This document shows, in pieces, positions 37,870 through 61,781 of a stretch of DNA of 64,000 bases; within the stretch, counting starts at the first letter, position 1, and each line of letters opens with the position of its first letter. Under the pieces are notes generated by a model that ran no database searches, was not told where the DNA came from, and worked only from the letters and a program-made list of their open reading frames with translations. This stretch comes from Bacteroidetes bacterium HGW-Bacteroidetes-1 (GTDB lineage Bacteria > Bacteroidota > Bacteroidia > Bacteroidales > F082): contig PHDU01000002.1 of NCBI GenBank assembly GCA_002842755.1, forward strand, positions 62,001-126,000, in the 5' to 3' direction. Position numbers and translations under genes: made by a program.

Positions 37870-40617
37870 TTACTTATGAACAAGCATTTTAATGCGCTCA
37901 CTCCAATCATTGCCTTCGATTGCAACCACGTAAATACCTGCAGGCAAATCGATTGCTTTAGAATAAAACTGCTCACCAGAAACTCGCCCGGTGAAAACAC
38001 TGCGACCATCTACTGAGTAAAGGGTCAGAACTGCATTACTGTATTCAGCTGGCAAGCGTAAAACGAACTGGCCATTTGTATAATGGGCATTAGCTTTTGA
38101 TGTATTTCTTTCACTCAGGTTAACAGTACCCCAATCCTCCACTGCAATCCGATCAATAAAAACACCATAACCGGCTATGGATTTAGCATGCCAGGCCAGA
38201 TAACCAAAAGTTGTTGTTTCTGGAATGAGCAAAATTTCGGCAAAAAGCCATTCTGAAGCGCCATCAAAACCGGATAGTTCAAGAAGCTGAACCGTAAAAG
38301 CACTGGAATCAACATTATTTCCCCAAAACAAGTTTAATTGTTCTGTAGTGCCTGGGAGGAAAGCGCGGTAATAGAAACTGATATTGTATTCTTTTCCTGC
38401 TTCGACCATAATAGGGGGCGAAATAAGCCAGTTGTCAAGGTCAGTTAGTATCATTCCTCCTGAATTAAAACATCCCATCCCTTTTGCACCTTCAAAACTG
38501 ATCAGATTGGTAGAGACCCATTTTGCACTGCTGTACTGCAACTGCTGCCATGATTCCGGCAAATCCGGAGTTGCAACATCTTCAACATCTACCAGATACG
38601 GAAATTCACTAATTGCAGCAACTGTGGAGAAACTCCAGATTATTTCACAAGTCTCGTTAGCTCCATAGGTATTTACGGGAACAACTTTTAAAAAAAATGT
38701 ACTATTGGGTTCAAGGTCTGCAACAAAAAAGTTGTTGGTCATTGTGACTCCGTCAAAAATATTCCCGGGTGTTTGTATTCCTTCACCATCAGTACCAAAA
38801 TAAACGAGATATTCCACAGCAAAGGCAGCTTGCTCCCAACGGATTTTAAGATTTAAAAGATTTTCAGCAGACCCGTTAACGGGTTCAGTCAGTTCTTCGG
38901 AGCAGAAAGGAACTCCCTGGTATTCATTCATGCCACTAACGATAAGCGAAAAAACCTGATCAGAGGTGAGCTCCCCATCATGATTTACCACAATAGTATA
39001 AGTGCCTGCCAATGGCTCAGCGATAAAAACCTGTTCGGTATTATCCACGAAATTTTTTCCATCCGTTGAAGGAGGCGCAGCAGGATTGTCAGGATCAAGA
39101 CGATAAGGGAAATACAATTCGCCATCAGGTCCAATAAGTTTCAAATCCAAATCATGTACCAAAGAAGGAGTGCGATCATTCGAGGCTGGCTCAAGCACAT
39201 TGCCTGCAGGATCGGTCCAGCAAACAGTTACCCGAAGAGGCGAATTGCCAGCAGCATTAATTTCACGGATAATTGAATCATTATTGGCAAGGATCATTTC
39301 ATCTATTGAATTCTGAAGCACATCATCTTCTGATATCAATCCGGCTGCTCTTTCTGCATTGATCAGGCCCCAGCCAAACATGTAATCAGGCCCGGCGGCT
39401 GGCCCTGCCTCATCTGCTGTATGAATCACCAGACCTTTGAGTGTACTTGAACGCATCGGGATGCCATTGTGTGTTTGCTGATAATGTTGTTGCAGAAGTG
39501 CCATAGTTCCGGCAGCATTGGGTGAAGCCATGCTGGTTCCACTCTTTGAAGAATAGCTTGTATTGTTGTTCGAACCGGCTGAATACGTTCCAACACCTTT
39601 GGCTACAACATCCGGTTTAATACGGCCATCATCGGCAGGTCCCCAGCCACTGAAACTACTCATGACGACCGAAGAAGGACCCGTATATTCTGACACCTGG
39701 TTTACAGCACCGATAGCCATCATGTTTTTTGCTGTTCCTCCATCACCAACACAGTCGAATCCATCAGGCCCGCCGTCAACAGGAGGCAACCCACCTTGCC
39801 CGGCGTTTGACGGTCCTTGACCACGATCATTTCCGGCCGATTTTACGATGAGGTAATTAGGCGCGTTGTAGGCAATCATGTCCCATTCCTGTGAACGATC
39901 TCCATAGAAACCAAAACGGTAATCTTCCTGATTGGTTATTGTACTGTCGCCATACCAGATCCAATTACCATTGTTATTGTACCATCCGGTGATGTAACCA
40001 TATGAATGGTTGGAGAGTTCCAAACCAACAGATGCTGCCAGTGCCATTTCCGATTCGGCATTATTCCAGTCGTGGGCTTTGAGCATGCCTTTATAATTCA
40101 TGCCTTTTGCATTGGCATTTACACCTCCTGCAATGAGTGTTCCGGCAACGTGAGTAGCATGGTCGCTTAGCGATGTAGCACCATCCACCTGAATCACTCT
40201 TGGACTACCCTCATTGTTAAATTCCTGATGGGTGAGCCTCACAGCACCCCCATCCCATTCACCCAAACGGTCGTAACCTTCACCGGTGATGTTCAATCCT
40301 GTACTTCCACCTTCCCACAATTCAAATGCGCGTGTTGTTATTGCTGCACCCACATTATCCGTTATTTGATAAACAGGTTTTCCGTTTACCACATCAATCA
40401 ACTGGATAATGGTTCCATCTTCCAATTTTTGCAACAAACTTAAATTATTAGCCCTGGCAAAATCGACAGCACGTTTGTTGCTTTCTTTCCAGGCTTGTTC
40501 CTTTTCCGCTGCAAATGATGTCAAAAAAGGCACATTTGTAATGGTTTGTGAAAAAAGAAAAGAAGTAGTGCATAAGAAGAAAAAGACTGTAAAAGAGTAT
40601 TTGTTGATTATACGCAT
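37870..40617 (-). CDS. Subtilisin-like (S8) serine protease with T9SS sorting domain
   Basis: The ATG at 40617 gives a clean signal peptide (MRIINKYSFTVFFFLCTTSFLFSQ); the track start adds ten residues. After a pro-region comes the peptidase S8 domain with triad motifs LGEWDGGAVRLTHQEF (Asp), DHATHVAGTLIAGG (His) and SGTSMASPNAAGTMALLQQ (Ser). A P-domain-like beta sandwich (about 460-575), an Fn3 domain (about 590-680) and a choice-of-anchor-type jelly roll (about 690-840, WLISPPIMVEAGKEYN) follow. The T9SS sorting domain ends AIEGNDWSERIKMLVHK. The 915-residue protein is predicted to be a surface-exposed or secreted protease. A promoter candidate lies at 40645-40672. Confidence 0.93.
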   Translation of the reverse strand: MRIINKYSFTVFFFLCTTSFLFSQTITNVPFLTSFAAEKEQAWKESNKRAVDFARANNLSLLQKLEDGTIIQLIDVVNGKPVYQITDNVGAAITTRAFELWEGGSTGLNITGEGYDRLGEWDGGAVRLTHQEFNNEGSPRVIQVDGATSLSDHATHVAGTLIAGGVNANAKGMNYKGMLKAHDWNNAESEMALAASVGLELSNHSYGYITGWYNNNGNWIWYGDSTITNQEDYRFGFYGDRSQEWDMIAYNAPNYLIVKSAGNDRGQGPSNAGQGGLPPVDGGPDGFDCVGDGGTAKNMMAIGAVNQVSEYTGPSSVVMSSFSGWGPADDGRIKPDVVAKGVGTYSAGSNNNTSYSSKSGTSMASPNAAGTMALLQQHYQQTHNGIPMRSSTLKGLVIHTADEAGPAAGPDYMFGWGLINAERAAGLISEDDVLQNSIDEMILANNDSIIREINAAGNSPLRVTVCWTDPAGNVLEPASNDRTPSLVHDLDLKLIGPDGELYFPYRLDPDNPAAPPSTDGKNFVDNTEQVFIAEPLAGTYTIVVNHDGELTSDQVFSLIVSGMNEYQGVPFCSEELTEPVNGSAENLLNLKIRWEQAAFAVEYLVYFGTDGEGIQTPGNIFDGVTMTNNFFVADLEPNSTFFLKVVPVNTYGANETCEIIWSFSTVAAISEFPYLVDVEDVATPDLPESWQQLQYSSAKWVSTNLISFEGAKGMGCFNSGGMILTDLDNWLISPPIMVEAGKEYNISFYYRAFLPGTTEQLNLFWGNNVDSSAFTVQLLELSGFDGASEWLFAEILLIPETTTFGYLAWHAKSIAGYGVFIDRIAVEDWGTVNLSERNTSKANAHYTNGQFVLRLPAEYSNAVLTLYSVDGRSVFTGRVSGEQFYSKAIDLPAGIYVVAIEGNDWSERIKMLVHK

Positions 40618-40644
40618 CGGTTTTAAATTATTAATGGTGAATGG

Positions 40645-40672
40645 CAAAAATAAAAAAATCTAACTAGCACAA
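40645..40672 (-). promoter_or_regulatory. Putative promoter of the S8 protease gene
   Basis: The minus strand reads TTGTGC, then TATTTTTG with a 17-nt spacer. The -7 box ends 28 bp from the ATG at 40617. Confidence 0.45.
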
Positions 40673-40817
40673 GGAATCAAACTCGTTTTTCTTGAAATCC
40701 TTTATTTGGCTCACCTATCATCAATCTTTCTACTTTTTGTTAAATCATAGATGTAATCAAACGGTTATTTTCAATATTAAACAAACAAAAACCATCACTA
40801 ATCATTGCCTTCCGAAA

Positions 40818-42404
40818 AACGAAGATCAGGTATATGTAGTATTGGCTTCTTCAGTCGAATGTGCTTCAGCATCAACTAACCAATCCAATGTAATCGAAAT
40901 GATCGTAAGTAATGGCATTCCTGTGGAATGTACCAATAATAATGCTGAAATGATGATTACAATGAATGCTAATGACATGGTTGCGCCCTCGGTCAACATT
41001 GAAGCCAGTGAAAACCCCGTATTTTTAGGTGATCCTGTTACCTTTACCCCTTCACCCGAAAATGGTGGCGTTACGCCTGCATACCAATGGTATGTAAATG
41101 GAAGCTTTGTTAGCAACGGGACTTTCTATACCTATGTGCCACAAAATGGTGATGAAGTTTATGCAATTATGACGGGTTCATTGGCATGCGTTACCTCATC
41201 AACAGCTACGTCCAACACCATCCAAATGGTGGTTAGTGATGGTTTTCCGGTCATTGTTACAAACACCTCAAGTCTGGTACAGACAATCAACCAGCCCAAC
41301 GGACAGGCCACTGATTACCTCTCCCTTCAAAATGGAGGTGAAGGAATACTGGTTTGGAGTGCTGCTGTGGAATACCTGAGACCTAATGCTCCGGTAGTTG
41401 TACCCGAAGGTCCGGCAACAGCTACTGTAAATCTTGATTTAATCGCAGCTGGCCTGGGATCAGGAACATCCCCTATGGATAAAGACCGCGAAACCGTGGC
41501 ACTTAATTACGATGTGGAAAATAATGATGCAATGGGCCTTGTAAACGGCGGAAGCTTTTCTGCAGCCGCACGACGCTATCCCTCCGATATGACTTCTCCC
41601 TATATTGGCTATATGCTCGAAACAGTGGATATTTACATTAATGATGCCCCAAGCTCAGCAAGCCTGAAAATCTGGGGAGCAGGAACAACCACAACTCTGG
41701 GAACCTTACTTTTAGAACAAACCTTTAATGGAACAGGCTGGGTAACCATTTCATTAACCGAGCCGATCGAAATTACCGGTACTGATATATGGGTTGGCTA
41801 TTCATTAACACATTTAGCTGGTGCCCATCCGGCAGGTTGTGATGTGGGCCCGGCCAATGCCAACGGCGACTGGATTTCTTCAGATGGAACAAGCTGGGGT
41901 CATTTGGCAGACCTGGGATATAGCGCTAACTGGAATATACGTGCTAACCTTACAGGAGAAAATTACAGTTGGCTGTCGCTTGACCAATATTCTGGCATGG
42001 TAGAAGCTAACGAATCGCAGGAATTATTGGTGTATTTTGACGCCACCGGTTTATCAGTCAACGACCTTTATACAGCCAATATATTGATCAATAGCAACGA
42101 TCCTGAAACACCGGTTGTTACAATACCTGTTACTTTGGCTTTAACAGTTGGTGTGGACGAAAACGAGCTCTCAGGCATTGAGGTTTATCCAAATCCTACC
42201 ATTGGATTGCTTAATATAAAAATCCCAACAGGAATAAATGAGATAAAAATGTATAATCAATTTGGTCAGGAAATGAAAAGGGAAAATGTCAATGGTCAAA
42301 CCAGCATCAACTGGAACCTAAGCTTGATGCCTGGCGGCACTTACCTTCTCAGGTTCGTCAATAACAAAGGGATAGTTTTGAATAAAAAAGTAGTCATAAT
42401 GTAA
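40818..42404 (+). pseudogene. 5'-truncated T9SS surface protein remnant
   Basis: The track frame (from a TTG at 40692) begins with about 40 residues of non-protein-like sequence and lacks a signal peptide or an early ATG. Protein-like sequence starts abruptly in the middle of an Ig/PKD-like module (NEDQVYVVLASSVECASAST), because the next, complete copy of that module reads NGDEVYAIMTGSLACVTSST only in its second half. A beta-sandwich module follows (about 285-430; HPAGCDVGPANANG, NWNIRANLTG), then a choice-of-anchor-D-like segment and a complete T9SS sorting domain (IEVYPNPTIGLLNIKIPTG). The downstream frame is uninterrupted for more than 500 codons, so the loss of the 5' end may be recent. 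Without a signal peptide it could not be exported as written. Confidence 0.7.
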
Positions 42405-43064: not shown

Positions 43065-46000
43065 TTATTCAATAACAATTCTTTTTGTTTCAACCCTGTC
43101 ATCAATTCTGACAATAAACAGATATAATCCGGATGCATATTTACTGATGTCTAGATTAACTTTATTTGAAGTGATGTTTGACATATCCATAACTTTATGA
43201 CCTTTAGCATCAACGATTATCATGCTGTTCATTTTTTGTCCTTCGACAGTAATAAACTTCCTTGCAGGATTGGGGTAAATTTGGATAAGTTCAACCTCTT
43301 CATTTTCCATCTCACCAACCAGAACAGGAACACATTCTTCATCAGAGAATTCAGATTCACCACAATCACTATATACTGCGCTTACTTTGTAGCAATGCGA
43401 ACTGATTTGCATTTCAGTATAAGAATAGGAAGTTTCCTGCCAGAGCGATTCCATGAGAACGCCTTGATGATAAATATTGTATCCTAATAAGTTTCTTTCA
43501 TCAGAGAGTTTCCACAATGGTTCTGAAAGAGGAAGAGCATCATCGTTTTTGTAATATACAAAGGATTCGTCAATCATTCCAGAAAGTGCATTTACTTCTG
43601 TCGCGATTTTTGCCCCTGCTACTCCCAAAGCCCTAATCATACCATTAACACTAAAGCCAGACGTTTCCCATGCAGTCCATGCACCAGCCGTGTAGTTGCC
43701 GGAGTAAAAATGTGTATTAGGTTGATAAACATAAGGTTCACCAATACCATCATCGGTACCTAAACCGACAAATCCATCATAGGCTACACCCATAAAGAAA
43801 CCATTTGGAGCAATGATTGATTCAGGGAATGAGAATGTGTTCCATTGCCCATCGACATTAGTAACAACTGAATTAAACAGGAGATCATTGCTATTAGGAG
43901 TACCTGTTGCTAATAGCCCAAAGACATAGATGCTCACAGTTTCATGAGGGCCTCCTCCGTCAGGTGCATCACTAAGCAACCAGCTCATCTGAGAAAGTGT
44001 AGCAGGGTATGGATGCGCTGCACCAACAACGCCATTTGATGTTCCAGTTTGAAAACCTAGCTGGCCTGTTCTGACACCATCATCAAATCTGAATTCAGCT
44101 TCATCTTCCTCGTTCCATACCAAATGAATCAAGTTTGGATTTTCTTCATCAACCCAAACCTGCAGGTTGGAAGGTATGGGACAATCCATTTCCTCGACCA
44201 CTACATTTACGATATTTGAAGGCTCTGATTCGCAACCGTTACTCCAGACTGAAGTAACAAAGTAATCATAATTTCCAATATCCAAATTATTGTCGTTATA
44301 GCTCATACCCGAGATAACTTGTGTATTGATTTTTTGGCCATTTCGATAAACATTGTATCCATTGAGGATTCTTGGCTCGGTCAAAACATTGCGATCGTCA
44401 CTCATTGCAGAGGTTAAGCTACCATTCAGACTACCTCTGTCAGGTTCATCCAATGGCATTAAAAGTTCCGTAAAGCGAAGATCTGTACTTTCAACAAGGC
44501 CTCTGATGCTCCAATTATAATTTAGTGTTGGGGCTACCTGCAACAAGGTCTGCCAACCATTTCCGGCAAGGTTAATCATATTTCCCTTTCCATCGACTGC
44601 TGGACCGGCATCAGTACCGGCAGGGTGTCCTGTTGTAGTGTTGTTACGGAATCCAATCCATAATTCCTGACTACTATCAATTAAGACGGGGATATCAAGG
44701 AATATTTCGTTCCAACTTCCAATAACAGGATTTGTCACCAACTGATCAACCACCAGATTTTCGGGACCACTTATAGCACCACCAGTCCAGACTCTTACGC
44801 TATACGTACAAGCAGCTTCACGCGGAACGAATAAAACTCTTGTTAAGAATTTATCATTATACGAAATAAGATCTGAAGGCAGGAATCTTTGTGCAACATC
44901 AAAATCTACCGGGCCTCCGGTGCCCACGCTATTGTTATTGTGTACGCCATCCCAGTGGATCCAGGTTCCATCTTCACCGATAACAGGAGCTTGCCAATTA
45001 AGGGTCACATTGTTTTGGGTTTGGGTATAGCTGAGATTATTAGCAGGCTCGCAATACAATACAGGCATGACTACGGTGATGTTAGCATTCGTATTTACGG
45101 TAATTGTTGAAAGAACGCGCTGATAATCAGGATGAGTTACTGCATAAGGATATTCACCAGGTTGCAATGCGAAAACAGCTGTTCCATCCGAGCCTGTTGT
45201 TTGAGACAAGCCACCGATTACAATATTTGCACCTGATACAGGTTGTTCAGATTCATTTTCTACATTAAATGTAATTTCAAAATTATCCTGAAGTACAACA
45301 TCAATGGTGAGAGGATTAGCTGAAAGATTGAATGAGCCGGTAACATCAGCATAATCAGGTTTTGACACGATATATTGATAATTACCAGGATAAAGTTGTG
45401 TTTGAATTGACCCATCCAATGTATAACCGGAGAAAATGGTTTCATTTTCAAAGGAAATCTCGACAAGAGCGTTACTAACCGGAACACCATTTCCGTCGTT
45501 CACATTAAATTGAACAGGAGTTCCCTCGGGCAAAACAAAATCAACAGAAATGATTTCAGACTCACCGGTATAGTAAACTGCTTTAACACCAGCAGTATAT
45601 TCACCTGGAATTAAATTACTAAAGTCGTATGCTTTTGTCTCAATACCTGAAATAACTTCATCCTGATTCAGAAAAATACTAAAACCATTACCGGGTATTG
45701 CACCATCTGATTCAATTCCAATCGTTATATCATCAACGAGCAAAGCAAAGCCTGTGTAATTATGGCGAATTGTGACATATTTGGCTTCGGCAGGAATATT
45801 ATATGAAAACTTAGTCCAATAAGTCAATGCTATTTCATTTCCAGTAATAAATATAAAATCAGAGATATTATCTGTTTGAGTTGAGTAACCAATTCTAAAA
45901 GTTTCGAGCCCATAGTTATCAGTTACAGATTTTGCATAAAATGAAAAGGTATATGGCAAAGTATGATTTTGCTGTTCACTTATCAACCAATTGTTAGTTG

Positions 46001-49000
46001 AGCCCGAGGTAGAACCAAAACCAGCAAAATACTGATTACCTGAATGAGCACCCCAATATGCCTCAGACAGTGGCGGTGTCGTCTGGGCACGGTTCATTAC
46101 CATGAAAGCCATAGGCTCACCCATGTTAGGGTATGAAACGCCTGCAGGATAGACTGTTAGCTGAGCATCCTGATCGACAACTTTCCATTTTCCAATATTT
46201 GAGGTAATGAAGGCTGAATAACTGTCAACATTATCAAAATCAGGTTCTTGATTCCATAAAAACATAGCTGTACCTAAAGGCTGACCGGCAGTGATTATTT
46301 CAACATCGTAAGGATTGTCCAATCTTTCGATTATCTCAACAGACATAGCATAAACAACGCCTTCCACTTCAAGGTTGACGGAGGGATCAGTGTAATTTTC
46401 AAAGCCTGTATGAACCACTGATAAGCTGTACATACCTTTCAAGATATCAGGGATATTTACTATTCCATCAGGACCTACAATGCCACTATATATATGGCTT
46501 GGATTTCCATCGAGATTGGTCAGGCTAACTATCGCACCATTCGAAACAGATTGAATACCAGTGTTATTATTTACGGTAAGATTGAGCATAAGACGCATAT
46601 CTTTCTCCAGTTCATTAGATACTGCCATTTCAGACAAGACATTATTGGAATAAACTGCCTGCACACCATATTCATAAATTCCATAAGGCAGACTGCTAAA
46701 ACTGGCATCAACAAAACTGGTATCTGAAACAGGAGCGACATTAAGCAAGAGCCAGTCATCAGATTCCACAGATTTCCTAAATACATTGTAGTGCATGAAG
46801 GCTTTGGATGATTCTGTAGCATCCACTTTTATAAGGACAGCAGGTTCATCCGTTGTGAAAGATTGTACGGCATCAGTAATCAAGATAGTCTTATTACTGT
46901 TTAAATCCACTATAAAATCATTTGAGGCAGACATTTGTTCGAGAGGTCCGTTGGTAAGTCCGGCTGCTCTCATAAAGATATTTGCTCTTAGCGGAGGCGA
47001 TGTTGCATTTTCGAGAGGATTGAAGGATCCAAGACCATTGCTCCATTGCGTTCTTGGGTTCCATTCCCAAGGCTCCCCTACTCCATCATCATAAGCAAGC
47101 AGCGTATAATTATTATAGCCTGAAATACCAACGAAGAATCCAGAAGGAGCATGAACAGGTTCAGGCAGTGTAAAGCTGTTCCATCCATAGCTATTCACAT
47201 AATTTTCATGCGTAAAAATAACATCCGCCGGATTAGGAGAGTTGTCAGGATTTAATCCGAGAATAGTAATTTTGACTTCTGAGGACGAAGGATAGTTAGG
47301 AGATTGGTAAGTGTACCACTGGACGCTTTGAATAATTGCATCGTATTTCCAGGCAGAACCACCAATGATGTCAGGGCTGCCGGGAGTAATAAGCACACCC
47401 ATAACAGTACCATCATCATAGCGGAATAATTTTGGATATGGCTGGCCAGCAGCGAACCAGTTAACAATTGCATTGCCAGCTTCTTCTATTGCAGACACAA
47501 CATTGGGAGAAGGTGCGTTTTCCAACAAAGTGATTGTAGGCAAAATATAGTTTTGATCCGGCACTGAAACAGATTCAGTGTATAATTGATAACCTTGGAG
47601 GGCAACTTCAATCTGATAAGAGGTTGAACCCCAAACAGCATTAAAGCTAAAGTTGCCATCGGTGTCTGTGGTTGTCTCATAATTATCGAGGCCAGAAATC
47701 TTCACAGTAGCCTGCTGAGCAGGAGATTGGGAATCACTTTTAATGACGTTTCCAGATAGGGTTATCTGTGGACGAACCACTAATAAAGCATTTCCAAGAT
47801 TGATGTTGCCACCAGGCAGAAGATTAACATTTTGATAGACAACATCGCTGTAGCCATATTTTGATACAACCACTGTAAGATTTTCACCTGCCATAATATA
47901 AGGTGCATTATAATACCCTTGTTCCGTGCTCATCACTTGTGCGTTAGCCTCAGGGAAGGCTGGGTTAATAAACTCAATCAATGCACCTTCAACAGGCATA
48001 TTGTCAGCCTGATAGAGAACACGTCCATTAATATTTCCAAGACCATTGCCCGTATTAAAAAGCAGTGTTGTATTTGGATAATTGATTGTGGTGCCGACAT
48101 AAACCGGATTTTCAGGATTTATGGAAGTCCAACCACTTTCAAAAATGGTTCTATTTGGCCCATAATCAGGCGCTTTATAAGCAAATTTTGCGTTATTGCT
48201 GTACGTAGGACCATCAAAGTAATAGACAGAAACCACCAGGTTTCCGCTACCGCTATATACAAAAGGTTCAGAAAGTGGTATATTGACTCTACCTATACCC
48301 TCATTGAAATCAATTTTTCCATCGAAAACCAGCTGAAGCTGAGAAGGAGGGATATATGCATCTAAAGAACCCACAGCAGTTTCACCCATCCAAACTTTAA
48401 CTTTTCTCTGGGCCATATTATCAGACATATTTCTGTAGTAAGCAATCCTCTCGATAATACCACCAGTATTCAATTCATTGACGGGATACAATGATTGAGA
48501 AAGACTGGCACCTCTGTTATCTTCAAGATTAACAGGGTAATAATTATAATATGAAGTTTGAGCTGAGATTGGGAAATCTCCAATATGTTTGATTATGATA
48601 CTATTTTCGAAAACCTCAACCTCTATGACGTCACTGATGTTATTAACAAGATTCAAGTCTTCAGCCCAAACAATTTTAGCATAAACACCATATACACCTA
48701 GCTCTGTAAAAGTAGTTTGAAGATTCACAGTAATCAACTCACCCGGATTCAAAGCAGGACCATCAACCTGGGATAGAATTGTTTCAATACCATTGATATA
48801 AGTTGCCAACTGCAAAATATATTGACCCTCCTGAAGCGGATTCATACCAAAATTGGCAATTTCGAGCTGGTAATTAGTTGGTGTGTTCAGATAGAGAAAC
48901 TCATTCTCGGACTGAAAATCAATAACCATCAAGTCATTTTCGAATCTATTAAGCACAGAACCCATTACATCATCTATCACACCAGGCCAGCACCATAAGC

Positions 49001-52000
49001 TATTGAACTGAAAAGCCATATAGTAAGTTTCGCCATCAATTAAGCCCAAATCGCTCATGTTATAAGATTTCTCTGTATAAGACAATGATGGATCAATAAT
49101 TTCATCTATTATGATAAAATCAGACGGGTCGCTTCCAGATGTGCTATAGCCAATTTTCCAATTCTGTCCGTTCTGATTAGCGACTCTTTTGATCCAGAAG
49201 GAGAAGAAATCACCCTCTTGCCAGATCATTTCAGGAGTAATCAACCAATCATCGTAGCTTATTTGGCTTGGATTTCCGGCATACACATCAAGGGAAGCGC
49301 AAGCGATTCCTGTTCTTGGTGCAGTTTGGCCAGTCGGGACAAACCCAGTATTTCTCAGCCAACCTTTAGAGTCACCATTCACATCGACTACTTTCCAACC
49401 TAAAGGAGGAAACAGTTCACCCTCAAAGCTTTCTCTTAAAATTCCAAATCTTAATCCAATGCCAGTCAGGTCGACTACTTTACTGCCGGGAATATTTTCA
49501 TCCATAAGGAAAGATAGAGTTCCTTGCTCCAGACCAGGTTCGGATGCAATAAACTGAACATTAAAAATATGTTTTTCGCCCATTCCGAGAGAAACAGGGA
49601 AAACTGCATCAATCAGGGTGTAACGATTATTAGTAATATCGGCGCCTGTTATTATCAGTGTTCCACCACCAATATTCATTACTTCGGCCTGTAATACTTT
49701 TGGAACAGACGCCTCCATTGCTCCAAAATTGAGCTCAGAAGGTGTGGTTCTGGCGGCAGGATCAGTTGGCATATCGCCCATCCATAATTTGATATTTGCT
49801 CTTGACGAAACTAAATTCCCTGCAGGCAAGTTGTTAGGATCGTAGGGTGTCTGATCGTTCCAAGCACCAATGCATAAATTCTGGGGAAGTGTGTTAGGAG
49901 TACTGTAAAACTGATCTGATGGCGAACTCCAGCCAGGTTTCTTTTCAATAATTGTTACGATAAGATTTTCAGTATTATTATAAAAAAATCCATCAATATC
50001 AACTGTAGAAAACGATTCTCCTGTACTAACAACATATGGGCCGTCATAAACTTTTGTGAAACCAGAAAGCGGAACAGAAGCTGTAATTTCTGACTGGGTT
50101 GTGTGTGCCAGCCACACCTCAATATCAAACTCTAGATTTTCGGATGGTCCACCATACTGATATCCGATGCGGAAGATTCTTTTGTTTGCAACATTTAATT
50201 CTGATTGCAGGTAAAGAGTTTGAGAGAAAGAGTAACCAAAATAAGGATATATCGGAATATTGGAACTAAGCTCTGTACCCGTTCCCACAACAATATCCTG
50301 TTGACCGGTTGGCATTACCGAAATATTGAATGCAGGTGTTTGGTTGTTATTTGAATTTTCATCACCTGTCAGTTGCACTTTGCCATAAAGATGAGTTGAA
50401 CCAACAATCTGCGGAGTCCAGGCAAAAACAAATGATTTAGATTCACCAACTGCAATGTCAGTTCCAACGACAGTACCAATCTCAACATGATTTGCATCGA
50501 ACAATGAAACAGTATAATTTGAGCCTGATTCAGAATAAAGGCCAGCATTCGTTACGATTACGTTAAAGTTTTCAGTAGAACCAACCTCTAAAGCTGTTGG
50601 TCCGGTCACCGCATTACCCATCAAATCGTGATCCATTGGTGCGATGCAACTAATTTCGGCCATCCAGCCAGTTCCTTGGACAGATCCATCCGACGTAAAC
50701 AGGAAAGTGAGAGCACCTGAGTTGTTATCATCTGAGGCAATAATTTCAGGAGGCATTGTAGTTCCATGAAAGTTGCCCAATAATGGATCAGAGACATTCA
50801 GACCATCATAAATTTTGAGGAAATCAAAATTATTTTCAGTGTTAAATTCAGTAAAAATCAATTTCAATTTAGCACCTGAGGTGGATGGAGTGATAGTTAA
50901 GGTCAGATTTTCATTTGGCTGATAGCCATCATTGGCACCACCAGTATCAAGAAAAATACCATTACAAGTATTGATGGTACCATTTTGCATTAAGATTTGA
51001 CTTCCAAGATTCTCGACAATTTTAGACAGGGAATTGTTATCGGGAGCTTCATCGGCAGCAAGAACGACTGTAGCCGAAATTTCATAGCTTTGAACCTGTG
51101 AAAGATCTGCAGTGGCAGTAAAAGTATAATCAATAGATTCAGAAGTATTAAGTGTTGTACTAATTATCTCCTCTACAGCAGAACCGCCATTGATTGAGTA
51201 GCTAACTGATATGTCAGACTGAGGAGTGCTTCCGAAATTGATAACTTTTACTGTAACAAGCTCATTGCTGCTAAGATTTGGACCTGTTGAAGGAGAAATG
51301 ACTGCTTGTATTGCAAGGTCATTTTCAATAGTTTGAGCTTCCTGAAAAACTACATCATCGATAAAGTATTTTGGTATTTCAGACCCAGAGGCACCAGCAT
51401 AAAAATCTACTGAGCCCAATTGCTTAGTACCGGGAGTAATGCTATTAGACACTGCACTTAGCGGCCAGGAATGAATGACGTTATTATTGATAGTCAGGGC
51501 AATTAAGTCGGTATCAATATTTATCATATGCTTCACCTGAAACCATGTTGCTTTAGGATAATTGAAAATGATCGCAGGCTGAGCCATTGTGGTGAATTCA
51601 GCGGTACCATTTTGCAAGAAATATATCTCGAAAGCAAATTCCTGTCCGGGTGCTTCAAAATGCTGTATATTATAGTAACCTGCATTATTGTTTTCGATGT
51701 ACATCCACCAAGACAGTTCATAGTTGCCTGAGGTTTTATCCCCCAGAAGCAACAACATATCGGTCAAGTTTTCAATTTTGGCTGATTTGGCACCACTATA
51801 GGCAAAATCACCACTAATATATCCATCCTCGGATGTACAAGGAGTATTACTCCAGGTAGACCAGTTTACCGGATCCTGACAAGCAACCTGACCACCTATT
51901 GTAAAAGATTCAAAATCTGTTGAATAAACAACAGATCTTTTCAGGTTGAGTTCCATTGAATTGATTTCATTTCTCCCTGGTAATTCAGAAAGGGAAGAAT

Positions 52001-52118
52001 TCTTAAGATCGGGGACTGAACCAGGAATTTCAGAAGCCAAGACATGCAGTGATATTGTTGCGATAAACAAAATCATGCCAATCAAAGACATTTTAATTTT
52101 GGTAAAATTACTATTCAT
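43065..52118 (-). CDS. Giant (3017-aa) mosaic T9SS surface protein
   Basis: One uninterrupted frame with a signal peptide (MSLIGMILFIATISLHVLA). Approximate order: LamG-like domain (60-265, YSTDFESFTIGGQ); CARDB-type repeat (270-370); CUB-like domain (385-495); CARDB (500-600); a beta module (615-755); choice-of-anchor D (783-893); cleaved-adhesin/choice-of-anchor J (896-1053, RESFEGELFPPLGWKVVD); CARDB; a second copy of the module (1193-1353); carboxypeptidase-regulatory domains (1360-1523); a third copy (1556-1720); Fn3 and carboxypeptidase-like domains; another anchor-J domain (1970-2135); regulatory-like repeats (2200-2356); copies four and five (2406-2546, 2672-2836) separated by Fn3; and a T9SS sorting domain (2943-3017, IQIYPNPARKFITVEGQKMN). 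No catalytic motif was seen. A large adhesin or matrix-binding protein is most likely. Confidence 0.9.
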   Translation of the reverse strand: MNSNFTKIKMSLIGMILFIATISLHVLASEIPGSVPDLKNSSLSELPGRNEINSMELNLKRSVVYSTDFESFTIGGQVACQDPVNWSTWSNTPCTSEDGYISGDFAYSGAKSAKIENLTDMLLLLGDKTSGNYELSWWMYIENNNAGYYNIQHFEAPGQEFAFEIYFLQNGTAEFTTMAQPAIIFNYPKATWFQVKHMINIDTDLIALTINNNVIHSWPLSAVSNSITPGTKQLGSVDFYAGASGSEIPKYFIDDVVFQEAQTIENDLAIQAVISPSTGPNLSSNELVTVKVINFGSTPQSDISVSYSINGGSAVEEIISTTLNTSESIDYTFTATADLSQVQSYEISATVVLAADEAPDNNSLSKIVENLGSQILMQNGTINTCNGIFLDTGGANDGYQPNENLTLTITPSTSGAKLKLIFTEFNTENNFDFLKIYDGLNVSDPLLGNFHGTTMPPEIIASDDNNSGALTFLFTSDGSVQGTGWMAEISCIAPMDHDLMGNAVTGPTALEVGSTENFNVIVTNAGLYSESGSNYTVSLFDANHVEIGTVVGTDIAVGESKSFVFAWTPQIVGSTHLYGKVQLTGDENSNNNQTPAFNISVMPTGQQDIVVGTGTELSSNIPIYPYFGYSFSQTLYLQSELNVANKRIFRIGYQYGGPSENLEFDIEVWLAHTTQSEITASVPLSGFTKVYDGPYVVSTGESFSTVDIDGFFYNNTENLIVTIIEKKPGWSSPSDQFYSTPNTLPQNLCIGAWNDQTPYDPNNLPAGNLVSSRANIKLWMGDMPTDPAARTTPSELNFGAMEASVPKVLQAEVMNIGGGTLIITGADITNNRYTLIDAVFPVSLGMGEKHIFNVQFIASEPGLEQGTLSFLMDENIPGSKVVDLTGIGLRFGILRESFEGELFPPLGWKVVDVNGDSKGWLRNTGFVPTGQTAPRTGIACASLDVYAGNPSQISYDDWLITPEMIWQEGDFFSFWIKRVANQNGQNWKIGYSTSGSDPSDFIIIDEIIDPSLSYTEKSYNMSDLGLIDGETYYMAFQFNSLWCWPGVIDDVMGSVLNRFENDLMVIDFQSENEFLYLNTPTNYQLEIANFGMNPLQEGQYILQLATYINGIETILSQVDGPALNPGELITVNLQTTFTELGVYGVYAKIVWAEDLNLVNNISDVIEVEVFENSIIIKHIGDFPISAQTSYYNYYPVNLEDNRGASLSQSLYPVNELNTGGIIERIAYYRNMSDNMAQRKVKVWMGETAVGSLDAYIPPSQLQLVFDGKIDFNEGIGRVNIPLSEPFVYSGSGNLVVSVYYFDGPTYSNNAKFAYKAPDYGPNRTIFESGWTSINPENPVYVGTTINYPNTTLLFNTGNGLGNINGRVLYQADNMPVEGALIEFINPAFPEANAQVMSTEQGYYNAPYIMAGENLTVVVSKYGYSDVVYQNVNLLPGGNINLGNALLVVRPQITLSGNVIKSDSQSPAQQATVKISGLDNYETTTDTDGNFSFNAVWGSTSYQIEVALQGYQLYTESVSVPDQNYILPTITLLENAPSPNVVSAIEEAGNAIVNWFAAGQPYPKLFRYDDGTVMGVLITPGSPDIIGGSAWKYDAIIQSVQWYTYQSPNYPSSSEVKITILGLNPDNSPNPADVIFTHENYVNSYGWNSFTLPEPVHAPSGFFVGISGYNNYTLLAYDDGVGEPWEWNPRTQWSNGLGSFNPLENATSPPLRANIFMRAAGLTNGPLEQMSASNDFIVDLNSNKTILITDAVQSFTTDEPAVLIKVDATESSKAFMHYNVFRKSVESDDWLLLNVAPVSDTSFVDASFSSLPYGIYEYGVQAVYSNNVLSEMAVSNELEKDMRLMLNLTVNNNTGIQSVSNGAIVSLTNLDGNPSHIYSGIVGPDGIVNIPDILKGMYSLSVVHTGFENYTDPSVNLEVEGVVYAMSVEIIERLDNPYDVEIITAGQPLGTAMFLWNQEPDFDNVDSYSAFITSNIGKWKVVDQDAQLTVYPAGVSYPNMGEPMAFMVMNRAQTTPPLSEAYWGAHSGNQYFAGFGSTSGSTNNWLISEQQNHTLPYTFSFYAKSVTDNYGLETFRIGYSTQTDNISDFIFITGNEIALTYWTKFSYNIPAEAKYVTIRHNYTGFALLVDDITIGIESDGAIPGNGFSIFLNQDEVISGIETKAYDFSNLIPGEYTAGVKAVYYTGESEIISVDFVLPEGTPVQFNVNDGNGVPVSNALVEISFENETIFSGYTLDGSIQTQLYPGNYQYIVSKPDYADVTGSFNLSANPLTIDVVLQDNFEITFNVENESEQPVSGANIVIGGLSQTTGSDGTAVFALQPGEYPYAVTHPDYQRVLSTITVNTNANITVVMPVLYCEPANNLSYTQTQNNVTLNWQAPVIGEDGTWIHWDGVHNNNSVGTGGPVDFDVAQRFLPSDLISYNDKFLTRVLFVPREAACTYSVRVWTGGAISGPENLVVDQLVTNPVIGSWNEIFLDIPVLIDSSQELWIGFRNNTTTGHPAGTDAGPAVDGKGNMINLAGNGWQTLLQVAPTLNYNWSIRGLVESTDLRFTELLMPLDEPDRGSLNGSLTSAMSDDRNVLTEPRILNGYNVYRNGQKINTQVISGMSYNDNNLDIGNYDYFVTSVWSNGCESEPSNIVNVVVEEMDCPIPSNLQVWVDEENPNLIHLVWNEEDEAEFRFDDGVRTGQLGFQTGTSNGVVGAAHPYPATLSQMSWLLSDAPDGGGPHETVSIYVFGLLATGTPNSNDLLFNSVVTNVDGQWNTFSFPESIIAPNGFFMGVAYDGFVGLGTDDGIGEPYVYQPNTHFYSGNYTAGAWTAWETSGFSVNGMIRALGVAGAKIATEVNALSGMIDESFVYYKNDDALPLSEPLWKLSDERNLLGYNIYHQGVLMESLWQETSYSYTEMQISSHCYKVSAVYSDCGESEFSDEECVPVLVGEMENEEVELIQIYPNPARKFITVEGQKMNSMIIVDAKGHKVMDMSNITSNKVNLDISKYASGLYLFIVRIDDRVETKRIVIE

Positions 52119-55978: not shown

Positions 55979-58900
55979 ATGCTGAAGTTTTTATTGGTTG
56001 TTTTTTGTTTTCTGGCTCTAAACTTATCTGTGATTGGCTTCTATAGAACAAATGTTCATTCTATTTCAAGACGTGAAGGGTTGTCTAATGGGGCGGTAAA
56101 CACCATAGCAAAAGATTCAGAAGGATATATATGGTTTGGAACATGGAATGGGCTGAACCGTTATGATGGAAGCAGCATCGAACGATTTTTACCAGGAGGC
56201 AACCCAAATTCTATACATAATCATGTGATTCGAGAGCTTTACCCTACCAGCTCTGGTGCAATGTGGATGCTCACCAATAAAGGCATCAGTCTCTACGACA
56301 ACGAAAAGAACGTATTTTATTCCTTTTTTTCTCAGGAATCGGAACAGATCAATTATGAGAATGATATTTCACTGTGTCATTCTGAAGAATACGGAACACT
56401 TGTTGCCGTTTCCGGGAGCGGTATTTACCGCTATGATAGCCTTTCAACTCAGTTTGAAAAGATCCGGTTTTCGCAACCTTCCTATCAGGCCTCATTGGAA
56501 GTAAAGCGGCTGTATTCGATAGGGTCAGCTTTCTATTGTATTACCGGAGACAACCTGTTGTATAAAATCTCAGATACTCATCTTGTGGAAATAACTCAAC
56601 TGCCATTGAATGCAGTTATTTCTTCCTCTTTAGGCCTTTTAATGCAAAATCAGCCTTTTTTATTTATAACACAACGTGGAGATCACGCACTTCTGGTTGA
56701 AATAGAGAAAAAAACGGTCAGTAAGCTGAGAATCACAGATGATATCATTACTTCTTTTGCTTCTTCAGCTCAATCTGGAAGAATATGGACTGGTACTGAA
56801 AAAGGTCGTGTTTTTACCTTTGACCTAACCAAGAGGAAATTTGAGGTAATGAATATGCTGTCTGACATTTTTTTTGATAACCTGATTGCGACAAGAGTTC
56901 TGAGTATATTCGAAACGGCACCTGATATACTCTGGATAGGAACAGACGGTAATGGGGTGTATAATTTGAAACTTTCCGAATTTTCTAACAAAAGTCTTTC
57001 GTCGAAACAGCTTTCTTATCCGATTGTGCGAAGTATTCTTTTAACAAGAAACAAAAAACTGCTTATTGGCACAAAAGGTGGAGGAATAGATATTTTTGAT
57101 TCGGCAGGTAATCATATTCAGCAAATTTCTCTTAAAAACGGCTTAAGCAACAACTCTGTGCTATCGTTTCATGAGCGTTTGGATGGCAGCATTTGGGTGG
57201 GCACTGATGGATCAGGCATCGACATTATCTCCCCGGACTTTAAAACCATCAAAAACTTTCCTAAAGATTTTATTAGCGAAAATAATCTCGATTTTGAATC
57301 TGTTTATCGCATCATCGAAGAAGACAATCATCGTTTATATCTTGGCACGAGCGGTTATGGGGTAATCATGATTGAATTTGATAAAAATAATTTTTCGACT
57401 CCGTTGTATTACGAGCAGCTTATCCTCGATCCAAATATCAACAAAAGAGGGCATCAAAAACAAATTGTGTATGCCCTCACACAGGAAAGACCTGGTATTA
57501 TTTACATTGGCACCAGAGGATTTGGTGTTTATATGTATAATACTTTCACAAAACGGGTGATGATGCAATTTAACACCAACACCTATCCCGCTTACATAAA
57601 AAACGACGATATACTTTCCCTTTTTACAGACAATAAAAGACAAATCTGGGTTGGAAGTAGTGCAGGTCTTTTTTCTTTTTCAACTGAAGCCAATGGTGAA
57701 GTGAAGATTGAAGGAATAAACCTGCATGAGGACCTGTCAAACGCTTCCATTCATGGCATTCAAATGGATGGTCAGGGAAATATCTGGGCAACAACAAATC
57801 AGGGTCTTTCATGTATTGATCTTCAAAATAAGACGGTAAAAACTTTCAATACCAAGGATGGTCTTATCAATGTAGAATACAGTGATGGGGCTTCTTATTT
57901 CGACATTGAAACCAGTCAGTTATATGTTGGTGGCACTATGGGGGTCGATATTATTAAAACGAATGAAATAAAATACGCTTCCTTCTTCCCACCCATCGCC
58001 ATCAACGAACTGTACATCAGGAACCAGCTTGTCGATATCTCCGAAAACAGCGTCCTTAAAAGCCGTATCAATCTCCAGGACAATCTCAATTTAAAATATA
58101 ACCAGAATGCTGTGACTTTTTTCGTCTCAATTCTTGCATTCTGGGGAAAGGAAAGACATAAGATTTCTTACCGTCTTATCAATTTTGATAACGACTGGGT
58201 AGTAAGCAGACCCAATCAAGCCATTGGTTTCACAAATCTTGAGGCTGGGAATTATCGCCTGCAATTGCGCGTGAGCGATGAAAACGGCAACTGGTCAGAC
58301 CAGATCAAGGAAATTAAGATCGTTATCAATCCACCTTTCTGGAGAAGTTCATGGGCAATTGCATTCTATTTCATACTGATCATTGGCATTCAATTGTTGA
58401 TTATCTGGTGGTACCGCAAAAAAGAATTTCGCAAGAAAGAATTAGCACTTGTTGAATACAAACAGAAGAAAGAAAAAGAGCTTCAAAACTACAAGATCGA
58501 GTTCTTCACCAATGTTGCACATGAATTCCGTACTCCACTAACCTTAATTTCTTCACATATTCATGCATTGATAGAAGAAACGAAAACACTGAGCCCAAAT
58601 TCACGCTTATTGAAAGTTTATAACAACAGCCTGAAATTGCAAAAACTGGTGCTTGAAATCATTCAATTCCGTAAGCTTGAGAAAGGCAAAGAACCACTCA
58701 ATATCAGTAGTGTAAGTCCCAAACTACTCGCATTGGAGGTAATATCAGACATGGAAACGTTGGCCCAGAAAAATGACATTCAATGTGAGGTCATTTGCGA
58801 AGAAAAAGAAATGATGGTAAATACCGATGCAGACAAATACCAGCGAGTTCTTACTAACCTTATTTCCAATGCAATAAAATATAATAACCCTGGAGGTTAT

Positions 58901-60040
58901 GTAAAAGTGAAAATCATCTGCGGCGAAAATGAATTTTCAACTGAAGTTGAGGATAACGGTATTGGCATTAAACCTGAGTTAGAAAGTAAAGTTTTTGAAC
59001 CCTTCGGTATTTCTTCTGCTCAGAAGATAGGAAGTTTTCCGGGATACAGATCTACGGGACTTGGGCTTGCCGTGACGAAAGGAATTGTAGAACTGCTGCA
59101 AGGAACAATTACCTTCGAAAGCATTCCCAAATCCGGAACCCGCTTTATTTGCAAATTTCCTAAGATGCACCTGGTGAATTCCTCAGTCACAATGGATGAG
59201 TCAGCATATGATAGGCAAGAGCTCTCTTTCATAGAAGTGACACACAAAGAAGAGCTAATAACCAGTCCGATGTCCCCTGCAGAGCAACCCACCATACTGT
59301 TGGTTGACGATGACCCCGAAATATTAGGCGTTTTGAGTGATATGCTAAAACCTTATTATCTTCTGCGTTTCGCTGAAAATGGTAAAGTAGCACTGCAAAT
59401 GCTCGAAAAACAGAAAATTGATTTGGTTGTCTCCGACATTATGATGCCTGAGATGGACGGTATCGAATTATGCAATAAAATGAGAGAGAATATTGACATC
59501 AGCCATATTCCGCTCATTTTACTTACAGCCAAAGCAGAGATTGAGGATCGTATTATTGGTCTGCAAGCGGGTGCTGATTCCTATATCCCCAAACCATTTC
59601 ACCCCGATCATTTAAAGATAAGGATTGAGAAACTGCTTGAAATACGTCAGCACATTAGGAAAAAGTTTGGTGAACCTCAGGAAAGTCATTCTCTGATGTC
59701 GAAGATTCCCGACCCTTTCTTCCAGAAAATGCTGGATTACATCGATGAAAATATCGACGATGATACCCTCTCAGCTGACAAATTGAGTGAAAGACTAGGG
59801 ATTAGCAAATCATCACTATACAACAAAACTAAATCTGTATTAGGAACCACACCGCATGGATTACTCAACCAGCGCAGAGTAAAAAAAGCCTCGGTTCTAC
59901 TGGGTTCAACATCACTTACTGTAAGCGAAATTATCGACCAGACAGGCTTTAAAAGTCGCGCTCACTTCTATGAACTCTTCAATCAGGCTTTTGGTTGCTC
60001 ACCTTCTGAGTACAGACAGAAGAGAAAAATGGAGGGATAG
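55979..60040 (+). CDS. Hybrid two-component system (HTCS) regulator
   Basis: A 1353-residue one-protein sensor-regulator of the polysaccharide-utilisation type. After a signal anchor (MLKFLLVVFCFLALNLSVIG) come two Reg_prop beta-propellers (about 30-690; repeated motifs such as DSEGYIWFGTWNGLNRYDG and DGSIWVGTDGSGIDI), a Y_Y_Y domain (about 700-785) and a transmembrane helix (about 790-812). The kinase part has the His in NVAHEFRTPLTLIS (about 847), NLISNAIKYNNPGG and GLGLAVTKGIVEL. A receiver (about 1104-1220) has its Asp in VVSDIMMPEMDG (about 1154), and an AraC-type HTH (about 1250-1350, DKLSERLGISKSSLYNKTKS) is the output. It likely senses oligosaccharide in the periplasm and activates the downstream GH130/MFS/lipoprotein genes. 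Confidence 0.95.
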   Translation: MLKFLLVVFCFLALNLSVIGFYRTNVHSISRREGLSNGAVNTIAKDSEGYIWFGTWNGLNRYDGSSIERFLPGGNPNSIHNHVIRELYPTSSGAMWMLTNKGISLYDNEKNVFYSFFSQESEQINYENDISLCHSEEYGTLVAVSGSGIYRYDSLSTQFEKIRFSQPSYQASLEVKRLYSIGSAFYCITGDNLLYKISDTHLVEITQLPLNAVISSSLGLLMQNQPFLFITQRGDHALLVEIEKKTVSKLRITDDIITSFASSAQSGRIWTGTEKGRVFTFDLTKRKFEVMNMLSDIFFDNLIATRVLSIFETAPDILWIGTDGNGVYNLKLSEFSNKSLSSKQLSYPIVRSILLTRNKKLLIGTKGGGIDIFDSAGNHIQQISLKNGLSNNSVLSFHERLDGSIWVGTDGSGIDIISPDFKTIKNFPKDFISENNLDFESVYRIIEEDNHRLYLGTSGYGVIMIEFDKNNFSTPLYYEQLILDPNINKRGHQKQIVYALTQERPGIIYIGTRGFGVYMYNTFTKRVMMQFNTNTYPAYIKNDDILSLFTDNKRQIWVGSSAGLFSFSTEANGEVKIEGINLHEDLSNASIHGIQMDGQGNIWATTNQGLSCIDLQNKTVKTFNTKDGLINVEYSDGASYFDIETSQLYVGGTMGVDIIKTNEIKYASFFPPIAINELYIRNQLVDISENSVLKSRINLQDNLNLKYNQNAVTFFVSILAFWGKERHKISYRLINFDNDWVVSRPNQAIGFTNLEAGNYRLQLRVSDENGNWSDQIKEIKIVINPPFWRSSWAIAFYFILIIGIQLLIIWWYRKKEFRKKELALVEYKQKKEKELQNYKIEFFTNVAHEFRTPLTLISSHIHALIEETKTLSPNSRLLKVYNNSLKLQKLVLEIIQFRKLEKGKEPLNISSVSPKLLALEVISDMETLAQKNDIQCEVICEEKEMMVNTDADKYQRVLTNLISNAIKYNNPGGYVKVKIICGENEFSTEVEDNGIGIKPELESKVFEPFGISSAQKIGSFPGYRSTGLGLAVTKGIVELLQGTITFESIPKSGTRFICKFPKMHLVNSSVTMDESAYDRQELSFIEVTHKEELITSPMSPAEQPTILLVDDDPEILGVLSDMLKPYYLLRFAENGKVALQMLEKQKIDLVVSDIMMPEMDGIELCNKMRENIDISHIPLILLTAKAEIEDRIIGLQAGADSYIPKPFHPDHLKIRIEKLLEIRQHIRKKFGEPQESHSLMSKIPDPFFQKMLDYIDENIDDDTLSADKLSERLGISKSSLYNKTKSVLGTTPHGLLNQRRVKKASVLLGSTSLTVSEIIDQTGFKSRAHFYELFNQAFGCSPSEYRQKRKMEG

Positions 60041-60662
60041 GCTTATGCCATTGCTAAGCTAAGAGGCCTTGCTAAACTAAATATGAAAGCATGCAGCCTT
60101 TGACTGCAGGTATATCAAAAAATCTTCTAAAATTCTGATCAGTCATTAATACAAAAAATGGTTTTCAAACGATGCAACCAGACTTAATATACTTATCCTT
60201 AAACTCAGAGAGGGTTTATACCAAAGTGAATTATAGATGAATCAAAAAGCATTAATGGTATAATGCCGATGGATAGAAACGTTAGGCCAATTGAGTGAGC
60301 GATAATTGGACTATTACATTTCTCCTTTCGGTATTAAACGTTGTATTAAGCACATTTTCCTTCGATCAATAGCTTAAGCATAACAAAATTGAAATTAGCA
60401 GAGACACTGTAAGAAATTCGAATGCATTTATGCACTAAAAAAGCGCCAGCATGATAGGGGAGTTTTGACATTACTATAAAAACACTTCTAAAATTCTTCT
60501 AATTTTTATTATCGCTATCGATTGTTGTAGGTAAAAATATTTATCATGATTTAACCAATATGAGCTATATAAACCTTGCAAAACAACGAAAAAGGCAATT
60601 TTTGTAACCTGGTGGACAAGTTAAGGAAAGGAGCGGACACGCTTTTCTGCAATCGATTGTAA
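60041..60662. other. Intergenic region between HTCS and GH130 genes
   Basis: No gene was found in this 620-bp AT-rich stretch. It is the place to expect the HTCS-bound operator for the downstream operon, but no clear direct repeat could be identified by eye. Confidence 0.3.
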
Positions 60663-60694
60663 TTTTGTTAATGTCATAGAGAATGATAATTTTT
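60663..60694 (+). promoter_or_regulatory. Putative promoter of the GH130 operon
   Basis: TTTTG at 60663-60667 and TAATTTTT at 60687-60694 (one mismatch to TAnnTTTG) are 19 nt apart. The -7 box ends about 29 bp before the GH130 ATG. Confidence 0.4.
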
Positions 60695-60722
60695 ACTTTC
60701 TATCTAAATCTTAAACTTTGAT

Positions 60723-61766
60723 ATGGATATTGCAAAACGCTTTTCTCAAAACCCAATCCTACGTCCGGCTGACTTGAAATCCGGCATCAAAGGAATGGAG
60801 ATTGTTTGTCTTCTCAATCCAGGTGTGTTTAGATATGACGGGAAAATTTGGCTGTTACTTCGCGTTGCCGAAAGGCCAAAACAGATCGAAGGGAAAATAA
60901 GTTTTCCAGTCTATAATAATATAGGTGAGATTGAAATTTTGAGTTTCGATAAAAATGACCCCGATCTGGATGCATCCGACCCACGGGTGATAAATTACAA
61001 AAAGAAAGACTACCTCACTACCCTTTCTTACCTGCGACCTGTTTGCAGCGATGATGGCATTCACTTTTATGAACCAGAAGGTTATGCCCCTATTTTTGGG
61101 AAAGGAGAGCTGGAAACCTTTGGCATTGAAGACTGTAGAGTAGCTTCAATGGATGACGGTTTTTGTTTGTCATTTACCGAAGTATCGGAATTTGGTGTTG
61201 GTGTTGGTTTAATACGCACAAAAGACTGGAAAAATTTTAAGCGTGAGGGGATGATCTTCCCACCACATAATAAAGATTGTGCAATTTTTGAAGAAAAGAT
61301 TGATGAAAAATATTTTGCACTGCACCGCCCAAGCAGTCCCGAACTGGGCGGAAATTACATTTGGCTATCCGAATCACCTGACTTGCTGCATTGGGGTAAT
61401 CATAAATGCATTGCAGTTGTAAGGCCAGGCATGTGGGATTCAGTCCGTGTTGGAGCAGGGGGAGCACCAATCCGAACTGAAAAAGGATGGCTCGAAATAT
61501 ACCATGGAGCCAATGAAAACAACCGCTATTGCCTTGGAGCCCTTCTTCTCGATCTCAACAAACCATCAAAAGTACTTGCTCGAAGCATCGATCCCATCAT
61601 GGAACCAACGCAACCTTATGAGCAAACCGGATTCTTCGGAAATGTTGTTTTTACTAATGGTCATTATGTTGACGGAGATAACATTACTATTTACTATGGA
61701 GCCAGCGATGAAGTTATTTGTGGTGCTACACTTTCTATAACCAAAATCCTATCAACCCTGTCTTAG
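60723..61766 (+). CDS. GH130 family mannoside phosphorylase or beta-mannosidase
   Basis: A 347-residue five-bladed beta-propeller enzyme. GH130 signatures include NPGVFRYDGKIWLLLRVAER, the catalytic acid region GIEDCRV (Asp about 137), SESPDLLHWGNHKCI and GAGGAPIRTEKGWLEIYHGA. The family contains beta-1,4-mannosylglucose and beta-1,2-mannan phosphorylases as well as beta-1,2-mannosidases; which this is depends on the phosphate-binding residues, which cannot be judged without an alignment. No signal peptide is present, so it acts in the cytoplasm. It is followed 15 bp downstream by an MFS transporter gene and preceded by the HTCS gene, so it likely processes imported mannosides. Confidence 0.9.
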   Translation: MDIAKRFSQNPILRPADLKSGIKGMEIVCLLNPGVFRYDGKIWLLLRVAERPKQIEGKISFPVYNNIGEIEILSFDKNDPDLDASDPRVINYKKKDYLTTLSYLRPVCSDDGIHFYEPEGYAPIFGKGELETFGIEDCRVASMDDGFCLSFTEVSEFGVGVGLIRTKDWKNFKREGMIFPPHNKDCAIFEEKIDEKYFALHRPSSPELGGNYIWLSESPDLLHWGNHKCIAVVRPGMWDSVRVGAGGAPIRTEKGWLEIYHGANENNRYCLGALLLDLNKPSKVLARSIDPIMEPTQPYEQTGFFGNVVFTNGHYVDGDNITIYYGASDEVICGATLSITKILSTLS

Positions 61767-61781
61767 CTGCATTTCAACGCA

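Follow-up and report, generated by a model that had tools for sequence, protein, structure and literature searches.

Three remote families of uncatalogued, probably beta-sandwich modules in a 3017-residue type IX secretion cargo protein of a Bacteroidales bacterium

The 64,000-nucleotide stretch of DNA analysed here (the window; positions 62,001 to 126,000 of contig PHDU01000002.1, assembly GCA_002842755.1, Bacteroidetes bacterium HGW-Bacteroidetes-1) contains an intact open reading frame (ORF) for a 3017-residue protein, which is closed by a C-terminal Por_Secre_tail / TIGR04183 domain and thereby belongs to the type A cargo of the type IX secretion system (T9SS; Table 1). An earlier note, made from the sequence alone, had described this ORF as a T9SS mosaic in which familiar domains are interspersed with about five copies of a single module of 110-160 residues that it could not assign. 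The ORF and its T9SS tail were confirmed, and all five module stretches proved to be real and to lie near the residues proposed. The search for the familiar domains recovered CUB, CARDB, choice-of-anchor J, the carboxypeptidase-regulatory domain and an Fn3-like sheet, whereas choice-of-anchor D scored below threshold and the LamG domain expected at the N-terminus gave no Pfam match even at E <= 1. No protease domain was found among the Pfam matches of the protein. The five stretches are, however, not copies of one module: they fall into three divergent families, which we call A, B and C (two A, two B and one C), and with refined bounds each measures about 160-170 residues, more than had been estimated.

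Table 1. Features of the 3017-residue protein and the module of the adjoining ORF, with positions in the window.
Feature	Residues	Position	Strand	Basis or remark
ORF for secreted T9SS mosaic protein, modules A-A-B-C-B	3017 aa	43065..52118	(-)	ATG start, intact
Signal-peptide-like N-terminus	about 1-29	52032..52118	(-)	by eye from sequence
CARDB domain, best stretch	266-351	51066..51323	(-)	Pfam
CUB domain	398-487	50658..50927	(-)	Pfam
Module A1	611-782	49773..50288	(-)	alignment; modelled as residues 611-781
Choice-of-anchor J / Cleaved_Adhesin, best stretch	894-1038	49005..49439	(-)	Pfam, NCBIfam
Module A2	1185-1357	48048..48566	(-)	alignment, A tree
CarboxypepD_reg, best of five stretches	1453-1522	47553..47762	(-)	Pfam
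Module B3	1562-1722	46953..47435	(-)	alignment, profile comparison
Module C4	2388-2546	44481..44957	(-)	alignment, model; candidate metal pair Asp2503 + Asn2535
Fn3-like sheet (PF18370)	2580-2638	44205..44381	(-)	Pfam
Module B5	2674-2836	43611..44099	(-)	alignment, profile; Asp2789 + Asn2825 at equivalent positions
Por_Secre_tail / TIGR04183 T9SS type A sorting domain	2947-3016	43071..43280	(-)	over both Pfam and NCBIfam cut-offs
Sixth module, type C, in adjoining 570-aa T9SS ORF 40692-42404		41508..41954	(+)	alignment

The grouping rests on local alignment scores, each compared with 300 shuffles. The two A modules of the protein match each other at z = 13 and the two B modules at z = 31, while C4 matches at z = 18 a further copy in the adjoining ORF, which the earlier note had overlooked. 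Scores between modules of different groups mostly stay within shuffle noise. Judged by these alignments, A, B and C are three mutually remote families, each with clear homology among its own members. The source genome encodes two A and two B modules and six copies of C in six ORFs, and the ORFs that carry modules also carry Por_Secre_tail matches. As the earlier note had it, the modules are unassigned: none of the five stretches found a match in Pfam, NCBIfam, PHROGs or the sequences of the Protein Data Bank (PDB). The whole protein gave a single weak PHROGs match, located outside the modules, and a PDB sequence search, run with the protein and with a profile of each family, returned nothing beyond chance for the modules. 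Nor did we find a description of the three families in the open-access literature, a weak negative given that restriction.

To relate the families to each other, we took 80 loci from genome contigs, added relatives from sampled genomes and grew each family by iterated hidden Markov model (HMM) searches. Comparison of the resulting profiles with hhalign linked B to C at 95% (E 2.4e-8) over the whole length and A to C at 92% (E 7e-7) over 87 columns, whereas reversed-profile controls for both pairs reached at most 2% and the profiles of CARDB, CUB, Fn3 and carboxypeptidase-regulatory domains at most 2.5% against the modules. An iterated search seeded with B also reaches C. Moreover, in two near-orthologues of the protein (L074 and L075) a C-type module occupies the position of B5, so that B and C are architecturally interchangeable.

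We then turned to the predicted fold. AlphaFold2 models, computed from alignments of 85 sequences for C4 and 66 for A1, reached a predicted local distance difference test score (pLDDT) of 95.4 and a predicted template modelling score (pTM) of 0.90 for C4, and 95.7 and 0.91 for A1. Both models run through a short strand, a long strand, a short helix and then alternating long strands, in a common order. Of the expectation that all five stretches would share one jelly-roll fold, the part concerning the modelled types held: A and C are predicted to have one beta-sandwich fold. In Foldseek searches of the PDB, C matched the lectin-like domain of Cwp84 (4d59, template modelling score (TM) 0.65; 4ci7, TM 0.62; root-mean-square deviation 3.4-3.8 A), as well as PHR domains and phage tail proteins; A matched 4ci7 at TM 0.46, a PHR domain and the carbohydrate-binding module (CBM) of FjoAcXE, a Flavobacterium esterase. 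A single phage baseplate chain was matched by both A and C, and in the BFVD database C is similar to tail and virion proteins of phages. Because of these neighbours the fold must be regarded as already known, and the idea of a new fold was rejected on the matches of C and A to solved beta-sandwiches. Beta-sandwiches of the CBM type (7tok, the CBM of FjoAcXE; CBM6; CBM22; CBM27) are also among the Foldseek neighbours of A and C, but their TM mostly lies at 0.2-0.5 and no conserved ligand platform was identified in the modules.

The profile of C extends these links to catalogued families, and a new superfamily is accordingly no longer indicated, C being kin to DUF4082, choice-of-anchor R and the Cwp84 lectin-like domain. 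Among the 85 C members, DUF4082 (PF13313) matches 38 weakly (best 3.4e-6), Lectin_like (PF18560) matches six weakly (best 0.0023) and choice-of-anchor R (NF041539) matches four (best 2.6e-7). In hhalign, C aligned with DUF4082 at 87%, with Lectin_like at 25% and with choice-of-anchor R at 46%, against at most 0.6% for reversed profiles; A and B showed no hhalign link to any of the three. With DUF4082, C shares central strands that align in register (reversed 0.1%) and a secreted, multidomain context, but the C-terminal PAGxDxGPA and NW regions of C lie outside the matched columns, and neither the modules of the window (Pfam, E <= 1) nor the source genome yielded a DUF4082 match. In one sampled Bacteroidota ORF (L155), a clear A module (E 3e-26) shares its frame with a DUF4082 match that stays below threshold. 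The Lectin_like domain of Cwp84 (4ci7/4d59) is the second-ranked solved match of C and is also matched by A, yet the sequence link is weak, the window modules do not reach the curated cut-off of the family, and the Cwp84 domain sits in a Gram-positive cysteine protease, the modules in T9SS mosaics. The likeness of C to choice-of-anchor R (0.2% for the reversed profile) is likewise offset by the fact that this family is unreached by the window copies. Choice-of-anchor J (NF038128; Cleaved_Adhesin, PF07675; the gingipain K domains) co-occurs with the modules in the same proteins but is a separate family with models of its own, neither of which matched any of the aligned A or C sequences, nor, in a scan with Pfam only, any B sequence. 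Profile similarity suggests that it may be a distant jelly-roll cousin of C and B.

The comparison with Cwp84 also points to a candidate metal site. In its lectin-like domain (residues 335-497), calcium is bound by Leu339, Glu448, Lys460 and Asn487, and carbohydrate binding is called putative (PMC4089489). In three alignment modes, two Lectin_like members place an acidic residue (Glu or Asp) at the Asp in the PAGxD motif of C, and one of the two also places the Asn of its last strand at the Asn in the YNW motif. This Asp is invariant in C (85/85), and the Asn position holds 82 Asn and three Asp; in the B alignment, Asp is present in 10/10 rows and Asn in 8/10. The pattern suggests that a calcium ion may lie near Asp2503 and Asn2535 of C4.

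Searching more widely with the 85-row profile, we found C in 104 of the 257 genomes sampled from the order (about 40%), and the named module loci among the 80 come from Bacteroidales, Cloacimonadota and Marinimicrobia. Scans with small seeds (5-row and 2-row) had returned C in 7/297 genomes of the phylum, and B in 1/297 of the phylum and 17/295 of the order; small seeds thus underestimate the spread, and absence in these scans is weak evidence of absence. The modules are strongly associated with T9SS export: among ORFs of the 80 contig loci, a T9SS tail, detected with an HMM built from the source genome's own tails, was present in 69 of the 77 module ORFs with their 3' end present and in 23 of 373 other ORFs of at least 250 aa (odds ratio 131), and by eye at least four of the eight tail-less module ORFs end in a tail-like stretch. 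T9SS genes have been reported outside Bacteroidota, including in Cloacimonadota (PMC11285876). Modules are carried by a C10 peptidase, BNR propellers, an Omp28 protein and mosaics with Cleaved_Adhesin domains, among others. A protein of 850-860 aa with a single C module recurs (L108, L109, L110, L116 and L125), with the layout BNR propeller, carboxypeptidase-regulatory domain, C and T9SS tail in L109. The source genome itself (4.2 Mb) has 135 Por_Secre_tail matches at E <= 0.001, a rich set of T9SS cargo. The proposal that the module had spread by recent duplication inside this protein did not survive a tree of 101 A modules, in which A1 and A2 do not group together but each with the same-position copies of related genera; recent internal duplication was therefore rejected for A. 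Two loci (L072 and L073) hold a second A1-like copy: the array is old, with some local duplication.

Taken together, we favour, with a probability of about 0.65, the reading that the three uncatalogued families belong to a known beta-sandwich superfamily, together with DUF4082, choice-of-anchor R and the lectin-like domain of Cwp84, and that their members serve as calcium-stabilised, non-catalytic binding modules. A number of observations weigh against it. A and B give no direct profile match (1-2%), so that A joins the superfamily only via C, and with a thinner B alignment of 10 rows the B-C link drops to 49% over 84 columns. The choice-of-anchor J profile scores 52% with C and 35% with B, and part of the signal may therefore be generic jelly-roll likeness; the score suggests either this or distant kinship. 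The Foldseek E-values against the PDB are about 1e-3 to 1e-2, none past 1e-3, and the predicted models cover A and C, with a C-like fold of B presumed from its profile. As to the metal site and the ligand, the C-terminus of the second Lectin_like member (L159) shifts between alignment modes and leaves its Asn alignment unstable, carbohydrate binding was not shown for Cwp84, whose domain lacks the usual sugar face (PMC4089489), and PHR and phage structural proteins use the same fold for protein-protein contacts. The missing A-B match and the lack of pairwise similarity across groups might even indicate that the three families share no ancestry and are beta-sandwiches that came to look alike by convergence. 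We regard this as very improbable, given that the B-C and A-C matches stand clearly above the reversed and unrelated-domain controls, that the order of elements is identical in the A and C models, and that B and C types swap at one architectural position in near-orthologues.

If the modules are indeed binding units of this superfamily, each would be a small unit that holds one calcium close to the invariant Asp (Asp2503 in C4) and the Asn/Asp with which the last strand begins (Asn2535), and with multiple copies per chain the protein would bind polymeric targets, for example polysaccharides, glycoproteins or particulate matter, with avidity. We infer that calcium, ligand binding, avidity and surface location are probable, and fold and architecture together suggest carbohydrate or protein as ligand. 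The modules have a fold known from sugar- or protein-binding domains, so the 3017-residue protein has the look of a surface protein for adhesion or substrate binding and not of one that is new in kind. It is also conceivable that the modules bind no ligand themselves and act as structural spacers or rigid links within a long surface fibre. Fn3-like, CARDB and carboxypeptidase-regulatory domains, which are commonly spacers, are interleaved with them, phage virion and tail proteins make up many of their structural matches, and no known set of ligand-binding residues was identified in them. The conservation of the PAGxDxGPA and GxGxM loops, however, exceeds what a spacer would need, and single copies stand beside enzymes and propellers (C10 peptidase, BNR_2, Omp28), as accessory binding modules do, which makes this explanation unlikely, if still one to be taken seriously. 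We consider it improbable that the modules serve to dock pro-segments or partner domains within T9SS cargo and not to bind ligands outside it. Such a role would resemble that of the Cwp84 lectin-like domain, which packs on the protease and its propeptide (PMC4089489, PMC4356305), but most scanned carriers, the 3017-residue protein included, have no protease domain.

Elsewhere in the window, a neighbouring gene (37870-40647, minus strand) encodes a subtilase (S8) that has a choice-of-anchor J domain and a T9SS tail. Positions 55979-63035 hold a hybrid two-component regulator (propeller, kinase, receiver and AraC helix-turn-helix), followed by a GH130 phosphorylase and a major facilitator superfamily (MFS) transporter, likely a mannoside-utilisation cluster.

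Our findings leave views of T9SS or of adhesion mechanisms unchanged. It is tempting to speculate that A, B and C together make up a large clan, as yet without a name, of calcium-stabilised binding modules that determines what T9SS-exported proteins adhere to in Bacteroidales, Cloacimonadota and Marinimicrobia, and that the A/B/C make-up of a protein would predict its target, although we hold this broader view to be doubtful. The practical use lies in a common set of domains that the libraries do not name, new members of what is probably a known beta-sandwich superfamily. C is common in the order yet has no Pfam or NCBIfam model of its own, so that many long T9SS proteins are left with unlabelled gaps of 160 residues; three HMMs built from the present alignments would label them and supply constructs with well-defined ends for use in binding assays.

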